Below the pieces are notes generated by a model. The model made no database searches. It saw only the letters and a list, made by a program, of their open reading frames with translations, and was not told the DNA's origin. Positions 6,107 through 15,014 of a stretch of DNA of 64,000 bases are shown here, one piece after another. Position 1 is the stretch's first letter, and every line of letters begins with the position of its first letter. Location: NCBI GenBank assembly GCA_022760475.1, contig JALEFZ010000088.1, positions 310,001-374,000 of the forward strand, given 5' to 3'. A program made the translations under genes and the position numbers. The stretch comes from Bacteroidia bacterium. GTDB lineage: Bacteria > Bacteroidota > Bacteroidia > J057.

Positions 6107-6886
6107 ATGAGTACGAGTGTGTTGAAACCTGTAAATAGCATCTTGATCTCTCAACCCCCACCGTCTGACAAGAACTCACCTTATTTCAGGTTAGCAGATA
6201 AGTGGGACCTTAAGATTGATTTTAGAAAGTTTATTCAGGTAGAAGGAGTTTCCCTCAATGAGTTTCGCAAACAGGGGATAGAACCCTTGGACTTCACTGG
6301 GATTATTTTTACCTCCAAAGTTGCCGTTGACCACTTCTTCAGACTTTTGAATGAGATGAGGATAGAAATGCCGGCAGAAACCAAATATTTCTGCGTCAGC
6401 GAAGCTACTTCAAAATACCTTGCCAAGTTTATCACCATCAGAAAGAGAAAGCTCTTTGTCGGTGAAAGAACGGCCATGGATTTACTGGCATATATTCAGA
6501 AGCATAAAAAGGAGAAGTTTCTTTTTCCTTGTAGCAATGTCCATCGCCGTGAACTTCCTGGTAAAATGGTAGAAGCAGGAATGGATTTGACGGAAAGTGT
6601 GATCTACAGAACCGTGCATGCAGACCTTTCCGATCTGGAGAACATCTTCTATGACATGATTTGTTTTTATTCTCCTTCCGGTATCCAATCTCTTTTTGCA
6701 AACTTTCCCGACTTCAAACAAAATAATACCAGGATCGCTGTCTTCGGACCGACTACCCGAAAGGAAGCTGAGAAGCATAATTTGAGGGTGGATGTTCAGG
6801 CTCCCATGCCAAATAAACCCTCGATGACCATGGCCATTGAGAGCTATTTGAGAAAAATTGAGGAACAAGAAGGCGAAAATGTGTAA
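6107..6886 (+). CDS. hemD: Uroporphyrinogen-III synthase
   Basis: A 259-residue protein with the two-lobe HemD layout. It shows ILISQPPPSDKNSPY at the N-terminus, FTGIIFTSKVAVDHFFRLL near residue 65, FLFPCSNVHRRELPGKMVEAGMDL and then VIYRTV in the middle, and FYSPSGIQSLFANFP followed by IAVFGPTTRKEAEKHN. These match the weakly conserved family, which closes hydroxymethylbilane with inversion of ring D. Its position directly after hemC is the strongest support. The start ATG at 6107 lies 12 bp after the hemC stop. Confidence 0.92.
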   Translation: MSTSVLKPVNSILISQPPPSDKNSPYFRLADKWDLKIDFRKFIQVEGVSLNEFRKQGIEPLDFTGIIFTSKVAVDHFFRLLNEMRIEMPAETKYFCVSEATSKYLAKFITIRKRKLFVGERTAMDLLAYIQKHKKEKFLFPCSNVHRRELPGKMVEAGMDLTESVIYRTVHADLSDLENIFYDMICFYSPSGIQSLFANFPDFKQNNTRIAVFGPTTRKEAEKHNLRVDVQAPMPNKPSMTMAIESYLRKIEEQEGENV

Positions 6887-7022
6887 CCTTTTTTGGATGG
6901 TGCATTATAGGATAAAATCCTTATAGGAACGGTTTAATGCAACAATTCAACAGTTGGGCTTTTTGGTTTATTGGAGTAAAAGTATCATCTTAGCTAGCAT
7001 ATGAGCTAATTTAATCTTCGCT

Positions 7023-8021
7023 ATGAAAAAAATATTACTTGCCTTGTTGCTAACCGGGCTGTGGGCGCTACCAGCAATGGGCCAGCAGTACTTTCAGAAC
7101 ACAATGTTTACCTATACCCAGTTTGGTTATAATCCTGCTTCTGCAGGTGCCAAAAGACTAGGTGTAGATGATGGTACTCAGCTAACCCTAATGGGTAGAT
7201 TACAATGGTTGGGATTTGAAGGAGCACCAGAAACTTCTTACCTCACCTATGAAAGCAGCTTGCCAGCTGATGCAGGTTATTTTGGTGGAATGATCTTGTT
7301 TGACAGAGCAGGTCCATTCTCCATAGGGAGTATTACTGCATCTTATGCATTCGAGCGTGAGATTGGTACTGACAATTATATAAGAGTAGGGGTTTCGGGA
7401 GGAATAAAGCAGTGGAGACTTGACCCTACCGGATTTAAACCTGAAGACCTCGGGGACAACGTACTGCCAACAAGTGTAACAAGCACAACAGTACCTGCCC
7501 TGGCAACAGGAATATATGTAACGGGTAACCATGCCGGAGGTGAAGATTTGAAATACTTTGCGGGTTTGTCCGTTCAGAATTTGTTGGAACCTTCATTTGG
7601 TGGAGCATTGCCAAGTACAGTTAGTGGTACTGAAGATGTTAGAACATTCGTACTTTCTGGCGGATATAACTTCAAATTGGATGAGGCAACCGCCAACAGG
7701 ATGTCTATCATGCCCTCTGTACTGATTATGCAAGACTTCGCACTTAACACTCCTCAGGTTACAGCAAGTGTTATTTGGAATTACAAGCCCATCGCGTTAG
7801 GGCTTAATTATAGACTTAATGAATCAGTGGGTGCTACGGCAGGCTTTAGTGTAAGCGACAAGCTATTTGTAGGATATTCTTACGACTATCCTCTGGGTTC
7901 ATTGAACCTCTCCGGAGACATCAATACCCATGAGCTAACGTTGATTTACAGGCTCAGTCCAGCCAGAAGTGGGGCTGGTAGAATAAATCAGGACATTCTA
8001 AAAGATGCTAGTGATAACTAA
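7023..8021 (+). CDS. PorP/SprF-family T9SS outer-membrane protein
   Basis: A 332-residue outer-membrane barrel. A signal peptide (MKKILLALLLTGLWALPAMGQQ) is followed by the family hallmark FTYTQFGYNPASAGAK, then MGRLQWLGFEGAPETSYLTYESSL and repeated amphipathic strands with alternating aromatic residues to the end (FSVSDKLFVGYSYDYPLGSL, HELTLIYRLSP). PorP/SprF proteins work with T9SS core components or anchor specific surface cargos such as SprB. It precedes gldK by about 240 bp in the same order as the porP-porK-porL-porM-porN cluster of Porphyromonas, which supports a core role rather than a cargo-specific one. Confidence 0.92.
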   Translation: MKKILLALLLTGLWALPAMGQQYFQNTMFTYTQFGYNPASAGAKRLGVDDGTQLTLMGRLQWLGFEGAPETSYLTYESSLPADAGYFGGMILFDRAGPFSIGSITASYAFEREIGTDNYIRVGVSGGIKQWRLDPTGFKPEDLGDNVLPTSVTSTTVPALATGIYVTGNHAGGEDLKYFAGLSVQNLLEPSFGGALPSTVSGTEDVRTFVLSGGYNFKLDEATANRMSIMPSVLIMQDFALNTPQVTASVIWNYKPIALGLNYRLNESVGATAGFSVSDKLFVGYSYDYPLGSLNLSGDINTHELTLIYRLSPARSGAGRINQDILKDASDN

Positions 8022-8265: not shown

Positions 8266-9342
8266 ATGAAAAAGGTATTTCTTTGGATCGCCGTATTGGC
8301 AATTATTTCTACCGGCTGCGGCTTGTTTGGAGGCGGAGGAACGGGTAACCACGGTGAACTTACCGGGGTAATGAAGCGTCCCGAATGGGATCAGTACCAG
8401 CCGCTTGGAATGGTTTACATTCCACCCGGATCATTCCACATGGGACAGAACGACCAGGATGTTCCATATTCCCAGATCTCACACAATCGTCAGATCACCA
8501 TCTCAGCATTCTACATGGATGAGCATGAGATTTCTAACAACGAGTACCGTCAGTTCCTATACGGTCCTTCTCCAGAAGAAAATGTTGGTCCTGTAGATAG
8601 AGCTATCGATACAGTTTCAGCTCCATATGACGAAGTAATCGTTCCTGATACCAATGTTTGGATCAGAGACTTCGCATACTCCTACAATGACCCGCTGAAC
8701 GAAAATTATTTCTGGCACCCTGCTTTCGATGACTACCCGGTAGTTGGAGTTAACTGGTATGCCGCACAAAAATTCTGTGAGTGGAGAACTGCTCACCTGA
8801 ACAATTACCGCCAGGAAGAGCGTAATCTGCCAGCTATGCCAAGATTCCGCCTCCCAACTGAGGCAGAGTGGGAATACGCTGCACGTGGTGGTTATGAGCA
8901 CAAGCTCTACCCTTGGGAAGGTCCTTACCTACGTAACTCCAAAGGATGTTTCCTCGCAAACTTCAAGCCTGGACGTGGTGATTACATCGCTGATAATTAC
9001 GAGTACACCGCTCCAGTTGATGCTTACTTCCCGAACGACTACGGTCTTTACAACATGCCTGGTAACGTAGCAGAATGGTGTGAAGATGATTTCGAAGAGT
9101 CTGGCTATTCTTATGCCCACGACTTGAACCCAAGATACATTGACAAGAAGATCCCCGAAGACGATCGCCTACCAGGTGGAGCAACTATCCGCAAGGTAAT
9201 CCGTGGTGGTAGCTGGAAAGATATTGGATACTTCCTGTCTTGTGGTACTCGTTCTTATGAGTACGCTGATACAGCTAAGTCTTTCATCGGTTTCCGTGCA
9301 GTAGTACCTGTAATCGGACGCTCTGGAGCAGCTGGACGTTAA
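8266..9342 (+). CDS. gldK: T9SS ring lipoprotein GldK/PorK (formylglycine-enzyme-like fold)
   Basis: A 358-residue lipoprotein. The signal peptide MKKVFLWIAVLAIISTGC ends in a lipobox, so the ATG at 8266 is chosen over an in-frame TTG 36 bp upstream. The body is an FGE/SUMF1-type domain: GMVYIPPGSFHMGQND, ISAFYMDEHEISNNEYRQFL, VGVNWYAAQKFCEWRT, FRLPTEAEWEYAARGG, NMPGNVAEWCEDDF and a final IRGGSWKD ... FIGFRAV. GldK and GldN form the periplasmic ring under the outer membrane in T9SS; GldK is not thought to act as an enzyme. It is followed by gldL after a 145-bp gap that contains a strong RNA hairpin. Confidence 0.95.
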   Translation: MKKVFLWIAVLAIISTGCGLFGGGGTGNHGELTGVMKRPEWDQYQPLGMVYIPPGSFHMGQNDQDVPYSQISHNRQITISAFYMDEHEISNNEYRQFLYGPSPEENVGPVDRAIDTVSAPYDEVIVPDTNVWIRDFAYSYNDPLNENYFWHPAFDDYPVVGVNWYAAQKFCEWRTAHLNNYRQEERNLPAMPRFRLPTEAEWEYAARGGYEHKLYPWEGPYLRNSKGCFLANFKPGRGDYIADNYEYTAPVDAYFPNDYGLYNMPGNVAEWCEDDFEESGYSYAHDLNPRYIDKKIPEDDRLPGGATIRKVIRGGSWKDIGYFLSCGTRSYEYADTAKSFIGFRAVVPVIGRSGAAGR

Positions 9343-9487: not shown

Positions 9488-10273
9488 ATGGCAAAGAAAA
9501 AAGGTTTCCTAAAGTCCCGCGCAGGTAAAGTTACTTTGAACTTTATCTATGGTGCCGCAGCAGCGGTAGTAATCGTAGGGGCTCTTTTCAAGATCCTTCA
9601 CTGGGAAGGAGCTAACGAGATGTTGATCATCGGTATGTTCACCGAAGCTTTTGTATTCTTGATTTCTGCATTCGATCCACCAGCTGATGAGTATGAGTGG
9701 GAGAGAGTTTATCCAGCCTTGGCTGACGAATCTCTGGCAGTTGCTGCCCCTACCCCTATCGATACTTCTTGGACCAATGAATTGGCCAACCTAGATGGAA
9801 GAGTATTCGGACAACTGTCTACGACTCTTGACGGATTGAACAGCGAAGTTGGAAAACTATCTAGTGTTACTGACGCTGCAGGTGCAACCAACGAATACAC
9901 CTCTAAAATCAAGGACGCAACAGCCAAAATTGATAACCTGAATCAGAGCTACGGTGTAGCTGTAGAGTCTATGGGTTCTTTCGCAAATGCTGCTGGAGAT
10001 GCCCAGGCTTACCACGAGCAGGTACTATCTATGACCAACAACCTAAAGTCGTTGAATTCTATCTACGAATTGGAACTTCAGGATGCCAAGACGCACCTTA
10101 AGTCTCTAAACCAGTTCTACGGAGCAATGACTGAAGCTATGTCAAGCATGGCTGAGGCTTCTAAAGACGCTCAGCAGTACAAAGAAGGCATGGCAACACT
10201 GAACGCGAACCTGACAAAACTTAACCAGGTTTACGGTAACATCCTTTCTGCAATGTCTGGCGGAACTCGCTAG
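9488..10273 (+). CDS. gldL: T9SS/gliding motor inner-membrane protein GldL/PorL
   Basis: A 261-residue protein. Two transmembrane helices lie at about 17-37 and 44-62 (NFIYGAAAAVVIVGALFKI, MLIIGMFTEAFVFLISAF). Glu53 in the MFTEAFVF segment corresponds to the buried glutamate that is essential for proton-driven rotation in the GldLM motor. After EYEWERVYPALA comes a long cytoplasmic coiled coil with repeated LNxxYG units (LNQSYG, LNSIYE, LNQFYG, LNQVYG) to the end. GldL pentamers surround a GldM dimer. It lies 50 bp upstream of gldM. Confidence 0.96.
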   Translation: MAKKKGFLKSRAGKVTLNFIYGAAAAVVIVGALFKILHWEGANEMLIIGMFTEAFVFLISAFDPPADEYEWERVYPALADESLAVAAPTPIDTSWTNELANLDGRVFGQLSTTLDGLNSEVGKLSSVTDAAGATNEYTSKIKDATAKIDNLNQSYGVAVESMGSFANAAGDAQAYHEQVLSMTNNLKSLNSIYELELQDAKTHLKSLNQFYGAMTEAMSSMAEASKDAQQYKEGMATLNANLTKLNQVYGNILSAMSGGTR

Positions 10274-10323: not shown

Positions 10324-12015
10324 ATGGCAAGTGGAAAACTATCACCCAGGCAGAAGATGATCAACATGATGTATCTCGTGTTGCTCGCTCTACTGGCAAT
10401 GAACGTAAGTGCTGAAATCCTGGAAGCCTTTGAGCAAATCAAGGAAAAGCTGCACACCTCTGCTCAGCAAAATAAGAATACCAATACTGGTCAGGCTGAC
10501 AGAATGTTAAAAGCTATTCAGGAAGAAATCGGCAAAGGAAAAACCGACAATGTTGGTTTGACCGATACAGTTAATTATGTAAGACAGGCCACCAATGACA
10601 TTCTTGGAATCATCGCATTCCATGAAGATACCCTCGAACAAATCGCCGGTAAGGATGAAGTAACCGGAAAAATCGAGAACAAAGGTGAGTCTGAGAAAAA
10701 CTACCAATACTGGATGGGTAGAGGTAGCGAAGAAAACCAAAACGATGGTCGCGGTGCCAAAGCTGCTTATCAGCTACACCAGGATCTCGACTCTTATATC
10801 GACAAATTGGTTGGCGTTTATAACGCTATCATTCCCGACAGTACCCCGGAACTGAGGTTGGATGCTACAAATGAGTATTTGGCTAAAGATCCAGAAGAAA
10901 CCCTGGACGGTGAAGCAAAAACCTGGGAAAGATACACCTTCCACAATCCGGTGGTAGCCAACCTGGCTCTGCTGGAAGCGCTGAAGCTGGATATCTTGAA
11001 GAAGGAAAAGCAAACCCTCGATATCATCAATACCCGTCTGGGTGTGAATACCTTCGAGGTAGACTCCGTAATTGGAGACTTCGCAGCTGTATCTGAGATT
11101 GTACCTGCTGGCCTTCAGTATGAAGCAAAGCTGTACGTTACCATGGCATCTAGCGCGGTAACTCCAAGGTTCAACTCCGGATCTGGTGCCATCAAGCAAG
11201 AAGGGCCTATCGGACGCTTGACTATCAATGCAAATGGTGGCTTGATTCCTAAAGGAAAAAGCGAAGCCAAGCAAAGCTGGTCGGCTACGATTACTGTACC
11301 TAAAGCTAGTGGTGGTAGCGAGGTAATCCCGGTAAAAGGTGAGTTTACAGTACGTAGGCCTGAGATTGTAGTAACCTCTGCCTCTGTATCTCTACTTTAC
11401 CGTAAATGTGCAAACGAGGTAAACATTGACGTTCCTGCTTTGGGAGATAACTATAACCCAAGGTTTTCTGGGAACAACGTTGAAGTTACTACTTCGAAGA
11501 GCAGCAAAAAACTGGTAAGGTTGATCCCAGGCGGTGGCAAAAAAGCTTCCGTTGTGGTACGAAGCCTTACAAATGGGCAGACAGTTGAGATTGGTCGTGT
11601 AGACTATCGTGTTGTTGAGCCTCCTAAGCCAGCTGTAAACATGGCTGTAAACGGAAGGATCTACAACGGTGCATCTATGGTACCAAAAACCAGCCGTGTG
11701 CAAGTAAGACTTGAGCCTGACGCAGACTTTAAAGCAGCCCTTCCAAATGATGCCAAGTATGGTATCGGAGGAATCGAAGTACTTGCTCAGCTTTCTCTCG
11801 GACCTCCAACAAGGGTTAACTCTATCCCTGGTCAGAAGAATGCTGTTACCAAGCCAGTTTCGGTTTCATTGGGTAACAAAGTGCGTCAATCAAGCCCTGG
11901 AACCAAGGTATACGTTCGTCTTAATGACATATATCGAGTAAATTTCAAAGGACAAAAGATTGTCGACAAACGATTTAACGAAGTAGAAAGAACACTTTCT
12001 CTCGTAGTAAAGTAA
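10324..12015 (+). CDS. gldM: T9SS/gliding motor shaft protein GldM/PorM
   Basis: A 563-residue protein. The N-terminus MASGKLSPRQKMINMMYLVLL carries Arg9, which pairs with the GldL glutamate in the motor, and a single transmembrane helix at ~14-33. The rest is periplasmic: helical D1 (to ~215), then three beta domains (from about TPRFNSGSG, PVKGEFTVRRPEIVV, EPPKPAVNMAVNG) ending in LNDIYRVNFKGQ and VERTLSLVVK. GldM spans the periplasm as a dimer and transmits inner-membrane rotation to GldK/N. A paralogue of the same length is encoded at 13289-14962. Confidence 0.97.
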   Translation: MASGKLSPRQKMINMMYLVLLALLAMNVSAEILEAFEQIKEKLHTSAQQNKNTNTGQADRMLKAIQEEIGKGKTDNVGLTDTVNYVRQATNDILGIIAFHEDTLEQIAGKDEVTGKIENKGESEKNYQYWMGRGSEENQNDGRGAKAAYQLHQDLDSYIDKLVGVYNAIIPDSTPELRLDATNEYLAKDPEETLDGEAKTWERYTFHNPVVANLALLEALKLDILKKEKQTLDIINTRLGVNTFEVDSVIGDFAAVSEIVPAGLQYEAKLYVTMASSAVTPRFNSGSGAIKQEGPIGRLTINANGGLIPKGKSEAKQSWSATITVPKASGGSEVIPVKGEFTVRRPEIVVTSASVSLLYRKCANEVNIDVPALGDNYNPRFSGNNVEVTTSKSSKKLVRLIPGGGKKASVVVRSLTNGQTVEIGRVDYRVVEPPKPAVNMAVNGRIYNGASMVPKTSRVQVRLEPDADFKAALPNDAKYGIGGIEVLAQLSLGPPTRVNSIPGQKNAVTKPVSVSLGNKVRQSSPGTKVYVRLNDIYRVNFKGQKIVDKRFNEVERTLSLVVK

Positions 12016-12031
12016 ACACTGACAAAGTATT

Positions 12032-12919
12032 ATGAAGAATCTAGTGCTCTCCACTATCGGGTGTATTTTATTCATCCTCCCAGCTTTTGGCCAAAATGCT
12101 CCTCGTATTGAGGATCACTTCTGGCGCAGAAAAGTAGTCAATAGAATTGACCTGAATGAGAAGATCAATTTCCCACTTATCTATAGGGAAAGTAAGCTCT
12201 ACGTAGACAATGGACAGTATGCTGAGAAGAATGGTGTCGTAGTGGCCCTGTTCAACGGATTGAGAGATGGTGTTTATCAGGCTTACGATCCAGATTCTCT
12301 CAATAAGCCATTGACTTGGGAAGATGTTTATCAGAAAATCCGTGAGTTCGAAGGTAAACTGACTGGAGAGGCTACTGACCTGGATGAAGATACAGGTGAT
12401 GGTAGTGAATTTGAAGAGTTTCCTGCTGATGGAGGAGATGACTTCGAAGAAGATGATTTTGATGGAGGTTTCGACGAGGATGGCTTCGAAGATGACTTCG
12501 AGGACACCAAAGAAGAAGACGATGACCTTGGTACAGAAGGTGCTAGCGGTAAAATCGACTGGGGACCGTATGAACAAGTAATTCAATTCGTAGAAAACCG
12601 TGTATTCGATAAAGTAAGCTCTGATATGGTTTATGACATCGAATTCATTCAGATCATCTGGACAGCTCCTGGTGATGTAGTACCTGAAGAGTACCTGTGT
12701 ACTTTCCGCTACAAAGACGTAGTTCCTATGTTGGAAGCTACTCAGTGGAAGAACCGCTTCAACGATGCCGAATATAGAAATCTGCGCGAGGCATTTGAGT
12801 TGAGATTGTTCCACTCTTACATCACTGAAGTCTCAGGAGATGGTATGCAAACGCTTCAGGAAGCTGAGTACCGTCGCCAGAAACTTGTTGAGTTCGAGCA
12901 CCACCTCTGGAGTTACTAA
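12032..12919 (+). CDS. gldN: T9SS ring protein GldN/PorN with acidic insertion
   Basis: A 295-residue periplasmic protein with a signal peptide (cleavage near AFGQN). The N-terminal half shows HFWRRKVVNRIDLNEKINFPL and LFNGLRDGVYQAYDPDSL. The C-terminal half shows IQFVENRVFDKVSSDMVYDIEFIQIIW, the FRYKDVVPML strand and LFHSYITEVSG. Both halves are typical of GldN. Between them, residues 116-169 form a low-complexity tract with about 30 Asp/Glu in 54 positions and periodic Phe, which the core family fold does not need. The frame is intact and codon use looks normal, so it is a real insertion and not a frameshift. GldN partners GldK in the ring. The gene is 16 bp after gldM and is followed by a terminator. 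Confidence 0.95.
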   Translation: MKNLVLSTIGCILFILPAFGQNAPRIEDHFWRRKVVNRIDLNEKINFPLIYRESKLYVDNGQYAEKNGVVVALFNGLRDGVYQAYDPDSLNKPLTWEDVYQKIREFEGKLTGEATDLDEDTGDGSEFEEFPADGGDDFEEDDFDGGFDEDGFEDDFEDTKEEDDDLGTEGASGKIDWGPYEQVIQFVENRVFDKVSSDMVYDIEFIQIIWTAPGDVVPEEYLCTFRYKDVVPMLEATQWKNRFNDAEYRNLREAFELRLFHSYITEVSGDGMQTLQEAEYRRQKLVEFEHHLWSY

Positions 12920-12941: not shown

Positions 12942-12972
12942 AAGGGAAGCCGACTGGCTTCCCTTTTTTTTT
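12942..12972 (+). terminator. Rho-independent terminator of the gldKLMN unit
   Basis: A perfect 10-bp stem (AAGGGAAGCC with GGCTTCCCTT) around the loop GACT is followed by an uninterrupted T run, 22 bp after the gldN stop. It separates gldKLMN from the second gldM gene. Confidence 0.9.
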
Positions 12973-13288
12973 GAAATACCTGTAACCTTTCCCCCGCCTT
13001 GTATTATGTAGGTGAATGTAAAGAGAGGTATAAACATCCAATGCCTTTCAAAGATAATTTAGAGTTAAGAATAAAATTCCATGTAAGGCGATAAGCCGCA
13101 CTCCATTAAGTAACATTTCTTCCTCTTTTGACGAGTTCATGATCCAAAAATGGACAGGGTATTTTATTGCCTCGTTTTCAGGGAGATAAGGAGTTGAAAA
13201 TATCGGAAAAACAACTTCAAAATAATCTGAGGCTTCCCATTCCTGTAGAATGGAGAGGCAGGAAAACCATTTACCAATTTTAAGTTAT
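12973..13288. other. Intergenic region upstream of the second gldM gene
   Basis: About 316 bp without a convincing gene on either strand. No exact TAnnTTTG promoter was found; the nearest is the TATTTTATTG stretch around 13160. A short inverted repeat (CCATTC ... GAATGG, 13237-13253) lies just upstream of the gldM-like start. The length of the gap and the terminator before it imply that the second gldM has its own promoter here. Confidence 0.4.
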
Positions 13289-14962
13289 ATGGCAACAGGA
13301 AAGCTTAGTAATCGACAAAAAATGATCAATGTGATGTACCTGGCTCTTTTGGCTATGCTCGCATTACAGGTTGACATTGATGTGCTCAATTCCTTTATCA
13401 GGCTAAAAGGGCAGATCCGTAAGGCAGGGATAGAGAATAGGGAAAAGAACCTTTCTTTCGCCAGTTTTATGAAGCAGAAAATTGACGATCAGGTCACAAA
13501 TGAAGGGAAAACAGAAAATGTAGGATTGAAGGATACCCTGGACTTATTGGAAAAAAGAACGATCCACCTCATTTCTGCCATTGACAAGCACATCAGTGAA
13601 CTTGAAGTCATCGCAGCCTTTGACCCAGAAACAGGAGAGTATGAGGCCAAAGAAGAGACCGAGAAAAACTATCAGTACTGGTTGGGGAATGATGATGAAG
13701 CTAATGGAAATAGAGGAAATGGGAAGGCGATCGGGCTTAGAGACAGCATGAATGAGTATTTTGGTTTTCTGGCAAATGTCTACAACAGCCAGGTATCGGA
13801 TTCTCAGAGGATTTTGCCTTCCTTGTTGGAAGATCCCAGTTCAGGACTTGGGTTGAGTCAAAAGAGCTGGGAAAAGGCCACTTTCGAAGGGCCAGTCATT
13901 GCCAATGTTACCAGCTTGGAAGCGTTTAAACTGGATGTTTACCAACGCCAAAAGGAAGTCCTGGATTTGTTGAACATAAGGTTGGGTAGTCCTACCAATT
14001 TTCAGCCTGATAGCATTATTCCCTTTTCAGCTCCAGTAGCTCGAATTGTCCCGGCAGGGGTTCCCTTTGAAACCAAGATCATGGTTGGGATGATCAACAA
14101 AAATATAACACCTCAGTTTTCAAGCCCTAATGGAAGCATCAAGCTGGAGGAGAATGGAAATGTTGGGACGCTGACCATAGCGGCAGATGGGAGGCATATA
14201 GCTAGTGGTGAGACGGAGGGGTTGCAAAGCTATACTGCTACAGTTAAAGTACCTAAGGCAACGGGAGGCTTTGAAACCCTCACTTTGAAGGATAATTTTG
14301 TGGTGAGGAAGCCCGAGGTCCTGGTCTATTCTGCTTCCGTACAGCAACTTTATCGCAATTGTGGGAATAAATTGAACATCAGTGCACCTGCTCTTGGGGA
14401 ATATTATTTCCCGAAAGTTACTGCACAGGGAGCTGAAGTTAGGAAGAAACAAGGAACGAGGTCTGTATATACGGTGGTTCCAAGCGGTAGAACTTGTGTA
14501 TTGGACATCAAGTCAAGTTATCAAGGCAGAACTGTAGAGCTTGATAAAATTAAATACCGTGTGATAGAGCCTCCCAAGCCTGAGGTAAGGTTCAAAATTA
14601 ATGGGGTGGCTTATAACGGTTATAAAACCATTCCGAAAAACAGTCGATTGACATTTTGGTTGAAACCGGACAGTGATTTCAAGACCCAACTACCCAAAGA
14701 TGCCAGATATGAGGTTTCGAGCATTGATATCCTCTTTGGAACCGGGATCAGTGTCCCTTCCAAAATTGCGAGCATAGATATGAGAGGGAAGGATGCTACC
14801 AAGCCAACCCGGATCAGTCTACCGGCGAGGGTAAGGCAGGCGCCTTCAGGATCAAGGGTCTACGTTGTGATCAATAAAGTCTACAGGAAGAATTTTATGG
14901 GAAGAAAGGTGGAAGTACCTATGTCTGAGCTGGTAAAAACCGTTGGTTTCAGTATCAGGTAA
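13289..14962 (+). CDS. GldM/PorM paralogue (second full-length copy)
   Basis: A 557-residue protein that aligns end to end with GldM at 10324-12015. It shares MATGKLSNRQKMINVMYLALLAML at the start, EKNYQYWLG, FEGPVIANVTSLEAFKLD, ARIVPAGVPFETK, VPKATGGFE, YRVIEPPKPEVRF, and a matching Y-R-K-N-F-M-G-R tail. Arg9 and the single transmembrane helix are kept, so it could engage a GldL-type ring. The clearest differences are in the helical D1 region and the final strand, which lacks the VERTLSLVVK ending. The ATG at 13289 is chosen by match to GldM over an in-frame ATG at 13250. No second gldL, gldK or gldN is nearby. It may be an alternative shaft for a variant motor or for selected cargos; this is inference. 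Confidence 0.9.
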   Translation: MATGKLSNRQKMINVMYLALLAMLALQVDIDVLNSFIRLKGQIRKAGIENREKNLSFASFMKQKIDDQVTNEGKTENVGLKDTLDLLEKRTIHLISAIDKHISELEVIAAFDPETGEYEAKEETEKNYQYWLGNDDEANGNRGNGKAIGLRDSMNEYFGFLANVYNSQVSDSQRILPSLLEDPSSGLGLSQKSWEKATFEGPVIANVTSLEAFKLDVYQRQKEVLDLLNIRLGSPTNFQPDSIIPFSAPVARIVPAGVPFETKIMVGMINKNITPQFSSPNGSIKLEENGNVGTLTIAADGRHIASGETEGLQSYTATVKVPKATGGFETLTLKDNFVVRKPEVLVYSASVQQLYRNCGNKLNISAPALGEYYFPKVTAQGAEVRKKQGTRSVYTVVPSGRTCVLDIKSSYQGRTVELDKIKYRVIEPPKPEVRFKINGVAYNGYKTIPKNSRLTFWLKPDSDFKTQLPKDARYEVSSIDILFGTGISVPSKIASIDMRGKDATKPTRISLPARVRQAPSGSRVYVVINKVYRKNFMGRKVEVPMSELVKTVGFSIR

Positions 14963-14981: not shown

Positions 14982-15014
14982 AAGGGACGTAATGAAGATT
15001 ACGTCCCTTTTTTT
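14982..15014. terminator. Terminator between convergent genes (gldM paralogue and cargo gene)
   Basis: A perfect 12-bp stem (AAGGGACGTAAT with ATTACGTCCCTT) around GAAG is followed by T7 on the plus strand, 19 bp after the gldM-like stop. On the minus strand it lies just past the stop at 15016, so it may serve both genes. Confidence 0.88.

Follow-up and report, generated by a model that had tools for sequence, protein, structure and literature searches.

A second full-length GldM gene behind porP-gldKLMN as a predicted second axle for a single GldL wheel

Why a cell with one GldL wheel should carry two genes for the GldM axle is the question raised by this locus. The stretch of DNA analyzed here (64 kb, called the window) has the gene order porP, gldK, gldL, gldM1, gldN, gldM2, all on the plus strand, and 369 bases separate gldN from gldM2. 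Unlike the usual operon position of gldM, that of gldM2 is not directly behind a gldL of its own. An in-frame ATG at 13250 is also possible as its start, but it is MATGKLSNRQKMIN at 13289 that lines up with the first residue of GldM1. The features of the locus are as follows.

6882 to 6909, plus strand: promoter-like motif TGTAACCTTT-N12-ATTATA, 113 bases upstream of porP (porP-gldKLMN)
7023 to 8021, plus strand: porP/sprF-family gene, first of the cluster (profile searches)
8269 to 9342, plus strand: gldK (458 bits against a cut-off of 350)
9488 to 10273, plus strand: gldL, the only full-length GldL gene of the genome (profile search)
10324 to 12015, plus strand: gldM1, the GldL-paired copy (profile searches)
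12032 to 12919, plus strand: gldN (Pfam GldN 107 bits; TIGR03523 66.5 bits, below the cut-off of 85.9)
12942 to 12965, plus strand: intrinsic terminator in the gldN-gldM2 spacer (hairpin and T run)
12981 to 13008, plus strand: promoter-like motif TGTAACCTTT-N12-ATTATG, 280 bases upstream of the gldM2 ATG
13289 to 14962, plus strand: gldM2, second full-length GldM, 557 aa, D1-D4 (profile, alignment and model)
13319 to 13390, plus strand: gldM2 codons 11 to 34, membrane helix (TMH, about residues 11-34; alignment, limits transferred from GldM1)
14573 to 14926, plus strand: D4 of gldM2, the tip domain, residues 429-546 (Pfam GldM_4th)
14982 to 15009, plus strand: terminator-like hairpin downstream of gldM2

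The hairpin between gldN and gldM2 folded at -17.6 kcal/mol (z -4.4), in agreement with the strong terminator that the earlier note had placed there. A 248-codon open frame antisense to gldN (12068-12814) is probably spurious.

Judged from its sequence, GldM2 is an ordinary GldM by family, and it is the composition of the motor that is unusual, with one wheel and two axle genes. The protein is 41% identical to GldM1 over the whole length (E 1e-145) and reached 196.7 bits on NCBIfam TIGR03517, above the cut-off of 180. The four Pfam GldM domains occur in order, three of them above cut-off and GldM_2nd at 24.3 against 24.4. Arg9 just before the TMH, Tyr17 within it and the single membrane helix are all retained, and Asn27 in the TMH is replaced by Gln. 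The domain order, Arg9 and single helix claimed for a second GldM-like protein of this length were thus confirmed. Both residues matter to known motors: an ion pair between Arg9 of GldM and Glu49 of GldL has been described (mBio 2025, PMC12239597); only one of the GldM chains takes part at any moment. The Y17A change in GldM lowers secretion according to a review (PMC9127263). Among 26 GldM copies that are not paired with a GldL, Tyr17 is present in all and Arg9 in 25, the 26th being a G001 frame taken from a later start. The AlphaFold2 monomer model of GldM2 (26 sequences, pLDDT 77, pTM 0.42) has a long helix that starts at residue 8; its D1 is helical and three domains are of beta type. Its closest solved chains were PorM 7cmg (E 5e-21) and GldM 6ey4, and its first ~230 residues matched the GldM chain 7sax_B of the GldLM motor with a TM score of 0.81 over 230 columns.

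A protein search of the whole window genome gave exactly two GldM, and the GldL model gave one full-length GldL and one 31-residue match below cut-off, also genome-wide. GldK and GldN were counted within the 64-kb window, which held no second GldL, GldK or GldN, as the earlier note had observed. Of 13 genomes in the GTDB family, 12 have one GldL above cut-off; the incomplete G009 has none, and no second GldM either. Eight carry a second GldM (the window genome, G001, G002, G003, G004, G005, G007 and G010). These make up eight of the nine members of the family's crown group, and the ninth, G006, is uninformative because its contig ends 46 bases past gldN. Genus g9 (G008, G011, G012) branches outside the holders of the second copy and lacks it. 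The family second copies form one clade, with support of 95/95 for 8 rows including the partial G004 row, and of 99/99 for 7 rows in a larger 64-row tree from which that row was left out. In six of the eight, gldM2 follows gldN directly (the window genome, G002, G003, G005, G007, and G004 across a contig end), and all six have a hairpin in the spacer (that of G007 seen by eye and folding); in G001 and G010 gldM2 lies elsewhere.

This conservation bears on the idea that gldM2 is a decaying duplicate or an assembly artefact, for which no support was found. The family second copies form a conserved clade of open frames without inner stops (the G004 copy is split over contig ends), and gldM1 and gldM2 stand in tandem on one contig in five genomes (the window genome, G002, G003, G005 and G007). 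Their synonymous sites are saturated while protein identity remains at about 40-47%, which points to purifying selection. The pN/pS ratio was 0.46-0.50 with pS saturated; no proper dN/dS was obtained, since dS was saturated and the comparison was limited to distant family copies. The check on decay proposed by the earlier note therefore came out in favor of retention, and we regard decay or artefact as extremely improbable.

Beyond the family, GldM and GldL were counted above cut-off in 43 genomes, each representing one family of the class. They remained from 46 first-drawn families after G045 and G052, without a GldM match, and G056, with one weak match, were left out. Two GldM were found in 12 of the 43 (G023, G025, G029, G031, G032, G044, G051, G057, G058, G064, G066, G067), and 11 of these 12 have one GldL; G067 is the exception, with a second, unlinked GldL. 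Three genomes already known from the analysis to have two GldM (G102, G224, G259) were added on that account and stand outside the 43, and G097, G129, G170 and G189 were picked for the tree on the same ground. In the neighbor maps the extra gldM has no gldK, gldL or gldN beside it; the exceptions are G058, G097 and G170, whose extra copy follows the operon. The GldM tree held 64 sequences, 38 GldL-paired and 26 unpaired, with the partial G004 row and four lipoprotein-type rows of the smaller tree omitted. The paired or unpaired label changes eight times on it, and seven of the changes are forced by well-supported branches. With at least seven forced changes, unpaired GldM arose repeatedly; as the tree reads, GldM is duplicated without GldL several times independently. 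Another clade of unpaired GldM, with 12 rows and support of 100/99, includes members of many families. The word orphan used in the earlier note thus holds in that no second GldL, GldK or GldN adjoins gldM2, but such copies recur across the class, and co-regulation of this one with the operon is probable. GldM and GldL are out of balance in a good quarter of the family representatives examined, in contrast to a UniProt survey of 5:2 motors in which annotations of GldM did not exceed those of GldL, in the portion of that paper available (PMC9389320).

Several other arrangements were noted in these genomes. In G067 the unpaired GldM and the unpaired second GldL (L107 and L108) are about 130 kb apart, and D3-D4 is the better-conserved part between its two GldM. 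G050 and G054 contain second, very divergent GldL-GldM pairs (L120:6725-8996 and L121:6973-9097), unlike the unpaired GldM. A G025 protein (L122:6587-7639, minus strand) has a GldL_N-like membrane segment fused to GldM D1 and adjoins a PorP gene. Leaving aside Gld/Por genes and large secreted proteins that form a loose group (7 loci), a single gene family recurred as the immediate upstream neighbor of unpaired gldM, at four loci in four genomes and at a distance of about 60-120 bases:

L110:5972-7264, L128:687-1976, L114:9266-10588, L143:9039-10292: gene family upstream of unpaired gldM

The L110 member, the one scanned, is an Amidase_3 peptidoglycan amidase, which possibly opens the wall for the shaft. 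No named relative was close, and in those showing the upstream gene the GldM is GldL-paired.

The two transcription units of the window appear to be linked by a promoter-like motif. The motif TGTAAC-N16-ATTATR has three exact sites in the 6.86 Mb genome, against one for the reversed control: upstream of porP-gldKLMN, upstream of gldM2, and on one other contig upstream of an uncharacterized gene. The window thus has two exact sites where 0.07 were expected. With a relaxed motif, seven genomes yielded 20 sites, and the reversed control yielded 2. Downstream lie porP (G000, G001), gldM2 (G000, G002, G005, G010), ECF sigma genes (G002, G003), a GldN paralogue (G001), a GldK-like gene (G005) and also unrelated genes. 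Scored on 16 positions, the motif upstream of gldM2 reached at least 15 in seven of eight genomes, and in G003 it scored 11 with the core TGTAAC-N16-ATTAT intact. Upstream of porP it reached at least 15 in only four of eight. Upstream of the ECF gene, 7 of 11 family genomes scored at least 14 and the window genome scored 13, as for autoregulation. Three of 1000 random window stretches scored above 13; all three scored 16 and were probably the real sites. The Bacteroidete TTG/TAnnTTTG promoter was not found upstream of gldM2 in the window. Since porP-gldKLMN and gldM2, and in relatives the ECF gene as well, have the motif in common, gldM2 is probably co-regulated with porP-gldKLMN and so with the motor. 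Because it precedes an ECF sigma gene, we infer that the motif is an ECF promoter; among the families compared, only the sigma70-ECF superfamily matched the associated sigma factor above cut-off. Beneath motifs of this type we also noted the G001 GldN paralogue (L156:1686-2558, plus strand), so that ring parts may be exchanged too, and large membrane proteins of G002 and G010 that resemble each other (L152, L164).

The two copies of the window differ unevenly along their length. Identity is 80% in residues 1-10, 58% in the TMH, 38% in D1, 48% in D2, 37% in D3, 42% in D4 and 12% in the last 17 residues. The between-copy means over 25 genomes are 75% for residues 1-10, 83% for the TMH, 39% for D1, 42% for D2, 46% for D3 and 33% for D4, the least alike of the four domains. 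Among these 25 pairs the window has the least conserved TMH. With GldM pairs matched for overall identity as the reference, D1 lay above expectation in seven of eight independent origins (G067 being the exception) and was slightly better kept than expected in the window pair. The earlier claim that D1 and the final strand diverge most therefore stood for the final strand; for D1 it was dropped, and D3 of the window pair is equally low. Normalized D4 fell below expectation in five of eight origins, the window family (z +0.2) not being among them. In the window family it is the N-terminus and TMH that are less alike than expected (z -1.5), which together with the changed TMH of the window speaks against the simple view that the motor end has stayed as it was here.

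Losses at conserved sites gave a trend only. Of the D4 sites conserved in GldM1, 20 of 52 are kept in GldM2 and 32 lost, against 37 of 67 kept in D1 (matched genomes; Fisher p 0.096 at a threshold of 0.83 and 0.46 at 1.0). In the independent clade, 5 of 18 are kept in D4 and 23 of 40 in D1 (p 0.049 at 0.8 and 0.18 at 0.9). A first, stronger-looking count had used unequal rows, and a loosened constraint on D4 of GldM2 was not kept as a finding. The GldM1-specific D4 loop AQLSLGPP is replaced in GldM2. In one alternative, GldM2 does the job of GldM1 and is kept as a spare or for dosage, as GldO partly is for GldN. The common promoter-like motif, the same domain set and the GldN/GldO precedent (PMC9127263) would fit such a copy. 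The roughly 40% identity, the separate clade, the 32 lost D4 sites and the repeated origin without GldL duplication (one exception among the counted cases) speak against it, and we consider it rather unlikely.

The D4 tips were also compared by a permutation test in which a genome's own GldM1-GldM2 pair was set against re-pairings across genomes, domain by domain. Under independent divergence after one duplication, a genome's own GldM2 should be no closer to its GldM1 than that of another genome. For D4, own pairs were more alike both in the window family (6 genomes, p 0.0016) and in the independent clade of 12 rows (11 genomes, p 0.0066). The matching was located in residues 426-500 and 451-525, and persisted when any genome was left out (p at most 0.024). 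The excess was about 2.5 percentage points, an exploratory result among 10 domain tests and 44 windows. In the second clade the same kind of test gave p 0.019 for D3 and p 0.015 for residues 1-50. D1 and D2 showed no matching as domains in either clade, nor did residues 1-34 (p 0.98 and 0.11). Concerted evolution of the TMH was considered because the N-termini of G031, G032 and G051 match by eye, and it was rejected on these p values; the three genomes belong to neither clade tested. The likeness of D4 within genomes suggests that both tips serve the same ring and are adapting to its genome-specific form. Partial gene conversion may be an alternative source of the signal.

Such matching weighs on a further explanation, in which GldM2 homodimers use GldL to push another outer-membrane partner, a gliding track or a special cargo. 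D4 suffices for PorN binding by PorM of P. gingivalis in two-hybrid assays (PMC5790014); that it is on average the least alike domain, falls below expectation in most origins and has lost the GldM1 loop would be expected of a changed output. The D4 likeness within genomes, however, points to a shared partner, and D4 of the window family is not unusually divergent. A link to gliding through GldJ was also tried and rejected: GldJ-like matches occurred in 50 of 51 genomes whether or not these had a second GldM, which left no co-occurrence to be read. A different output thus seems improbable.

GldM bodies without a motor end do exist. G002 and G010 (genus g3) encode GldM-like proteins that lack the cytoplasmic start and the TMH, three of the four with a lipoprotein-type signal start (..SSCDFG, ..TSCDLGG, ..ASCGLGG, by eye). 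Short proteins (165-289 aa) matching only GldM D3-D4 were also seen; Pfam GldM_4th was found in L085 alone of the four scanned.

L076:7445-9055, minus strand: TMH-less GldM-like protein
L089:8972-10603, minus strand: TMH-less GldM-like protein
L090:7805-9103, plus strand: TMH-less GldM-like protein
L088:8308-10101, plus strand: TMH-less GldM-like protein
L077:561-1319, L101:6375-7145, L102:4237-4962, L103:66-563, L105:488-1860, L085:3116-3985: D3-D4-only proteins

The lipoprotein-type relatives in these two related genomes imply that GldM bodies are usable without the motor part, which would suit a GldM2 acting as a brake that caps or jams motors, or as a static arch spanning the periplasm without GldL. 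The second copies keep Arg9, Tyr17 and the TMH, and this role is very unlikely.

We therefore favor, with a probability of about 0.58, the reading that the product of gldM2 works as a second axle on the one GldL wheel of the cell. It is based on a complete and long-conserved GldM with the GldL-interface residues kept, on the single GldL, on the separate terminator and on the shared motif. An ECF sigma factor common to both units would make porP-gldKLMN and gldM2 at once. GldM2 would enter GldL pentamers as a homodimer or together with GldM1, be turned through the Arg9-Glu contact, and push the same GldK-GldN ring through a D4 tip whose surface differs. A mixed set of motors differing in their grip on the ring would be the likely outcome. 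Against a second axle stand the 58% identity of the window TMH, the low z of its N-terminus, the absence of matching in residues 1-34 and the small D4 signal, as well as the 280 bases between motif and gldM2 start and a motif that is strong before porP in half of the genomes only. The alternative or mixed shaft proposed by the earlier note fits best, given the one GldL, Arg9, Tyr17 and the TMH, the retention and the motif; the changes of torque, direction or cargo choice that it added found no support. A bolder version is that GldM1 and GldM2 normally pair as a heterodimer in these bacteria, the asymmetric axle of two helices inside the GldL pentamer having been split several times independently into two specialized subunits balanced by the shared ECF promoter. 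We offer this only tentatively, as possible though doubtful.

Two axle versions with one wheel, arisen several times in related bacteria, may allow axles to be exchanged or mixed. If this holds in cells, there would be natural two-axle motors, in which straightforward gene deletions could address heterodimers, stator exchange and torque, and the regulon would offer access to the motor in a group that has received little study. The rare promoter-like motif common to gldM2 and porP-gldKLMN is new here. GldLM motors have been described with one axle type per wheel (PMC9389320, PMC12239597). Searches of the open-licence PMC literature listed no paper with a second GldM as its title or abstract topic (a phylum-wide GldLM comparison in mBio 2022 is outside this scope), and the available parts of PMC8986121, PMC12635249, PMC12239597, PMC9127263, PMC5445135 and PMC10202324 do not mention one.

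Extra GldM copies like gldM2 had already been noticed in F. johnsoniae. The introduction of a 2018 structure paper, citing its reference 11, speaks of "other extra orthologues of porM" (PMC5790014), a phrase that comes without GldL count, tree, promoter or mechanism in the text available. For P. gingivalis, binding of the porP promoter region by the ECF factor SigP has been described (PMC4800418); here an ECF gene and porP carry one motif, but the published SigP consensus looks different by eye from TGTAAC-N16-ATTATR, and the likeness of the sigma factor to SigP is at class level. GldN and GldO of F. johnsoniae (PMC9127263) are, like the two GldM, adjacent paralogues of a core part, and are partly redundant; GldO is a ring part, and GldM2 would be an axle. 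AglR-AglQ-AglS of Myxococcus, a gliding motor of a different protein family, also has two axle proteins with one wheel protein, a likeness by description; whether AglQ and AglS form hetero- or homodimers is stated to be unknown (PMC9389320). The nearest known system remains GldM/PorM (TIGR03517), the axle of the T9SS and gliding motor, with which GldM2 shares length, domain order, Arg9, Tyr17, TMH, score and fold, and from which it differs in being transcribed separately, in lacking a GldL partner gene, and in its D4 surface and C-terminus.
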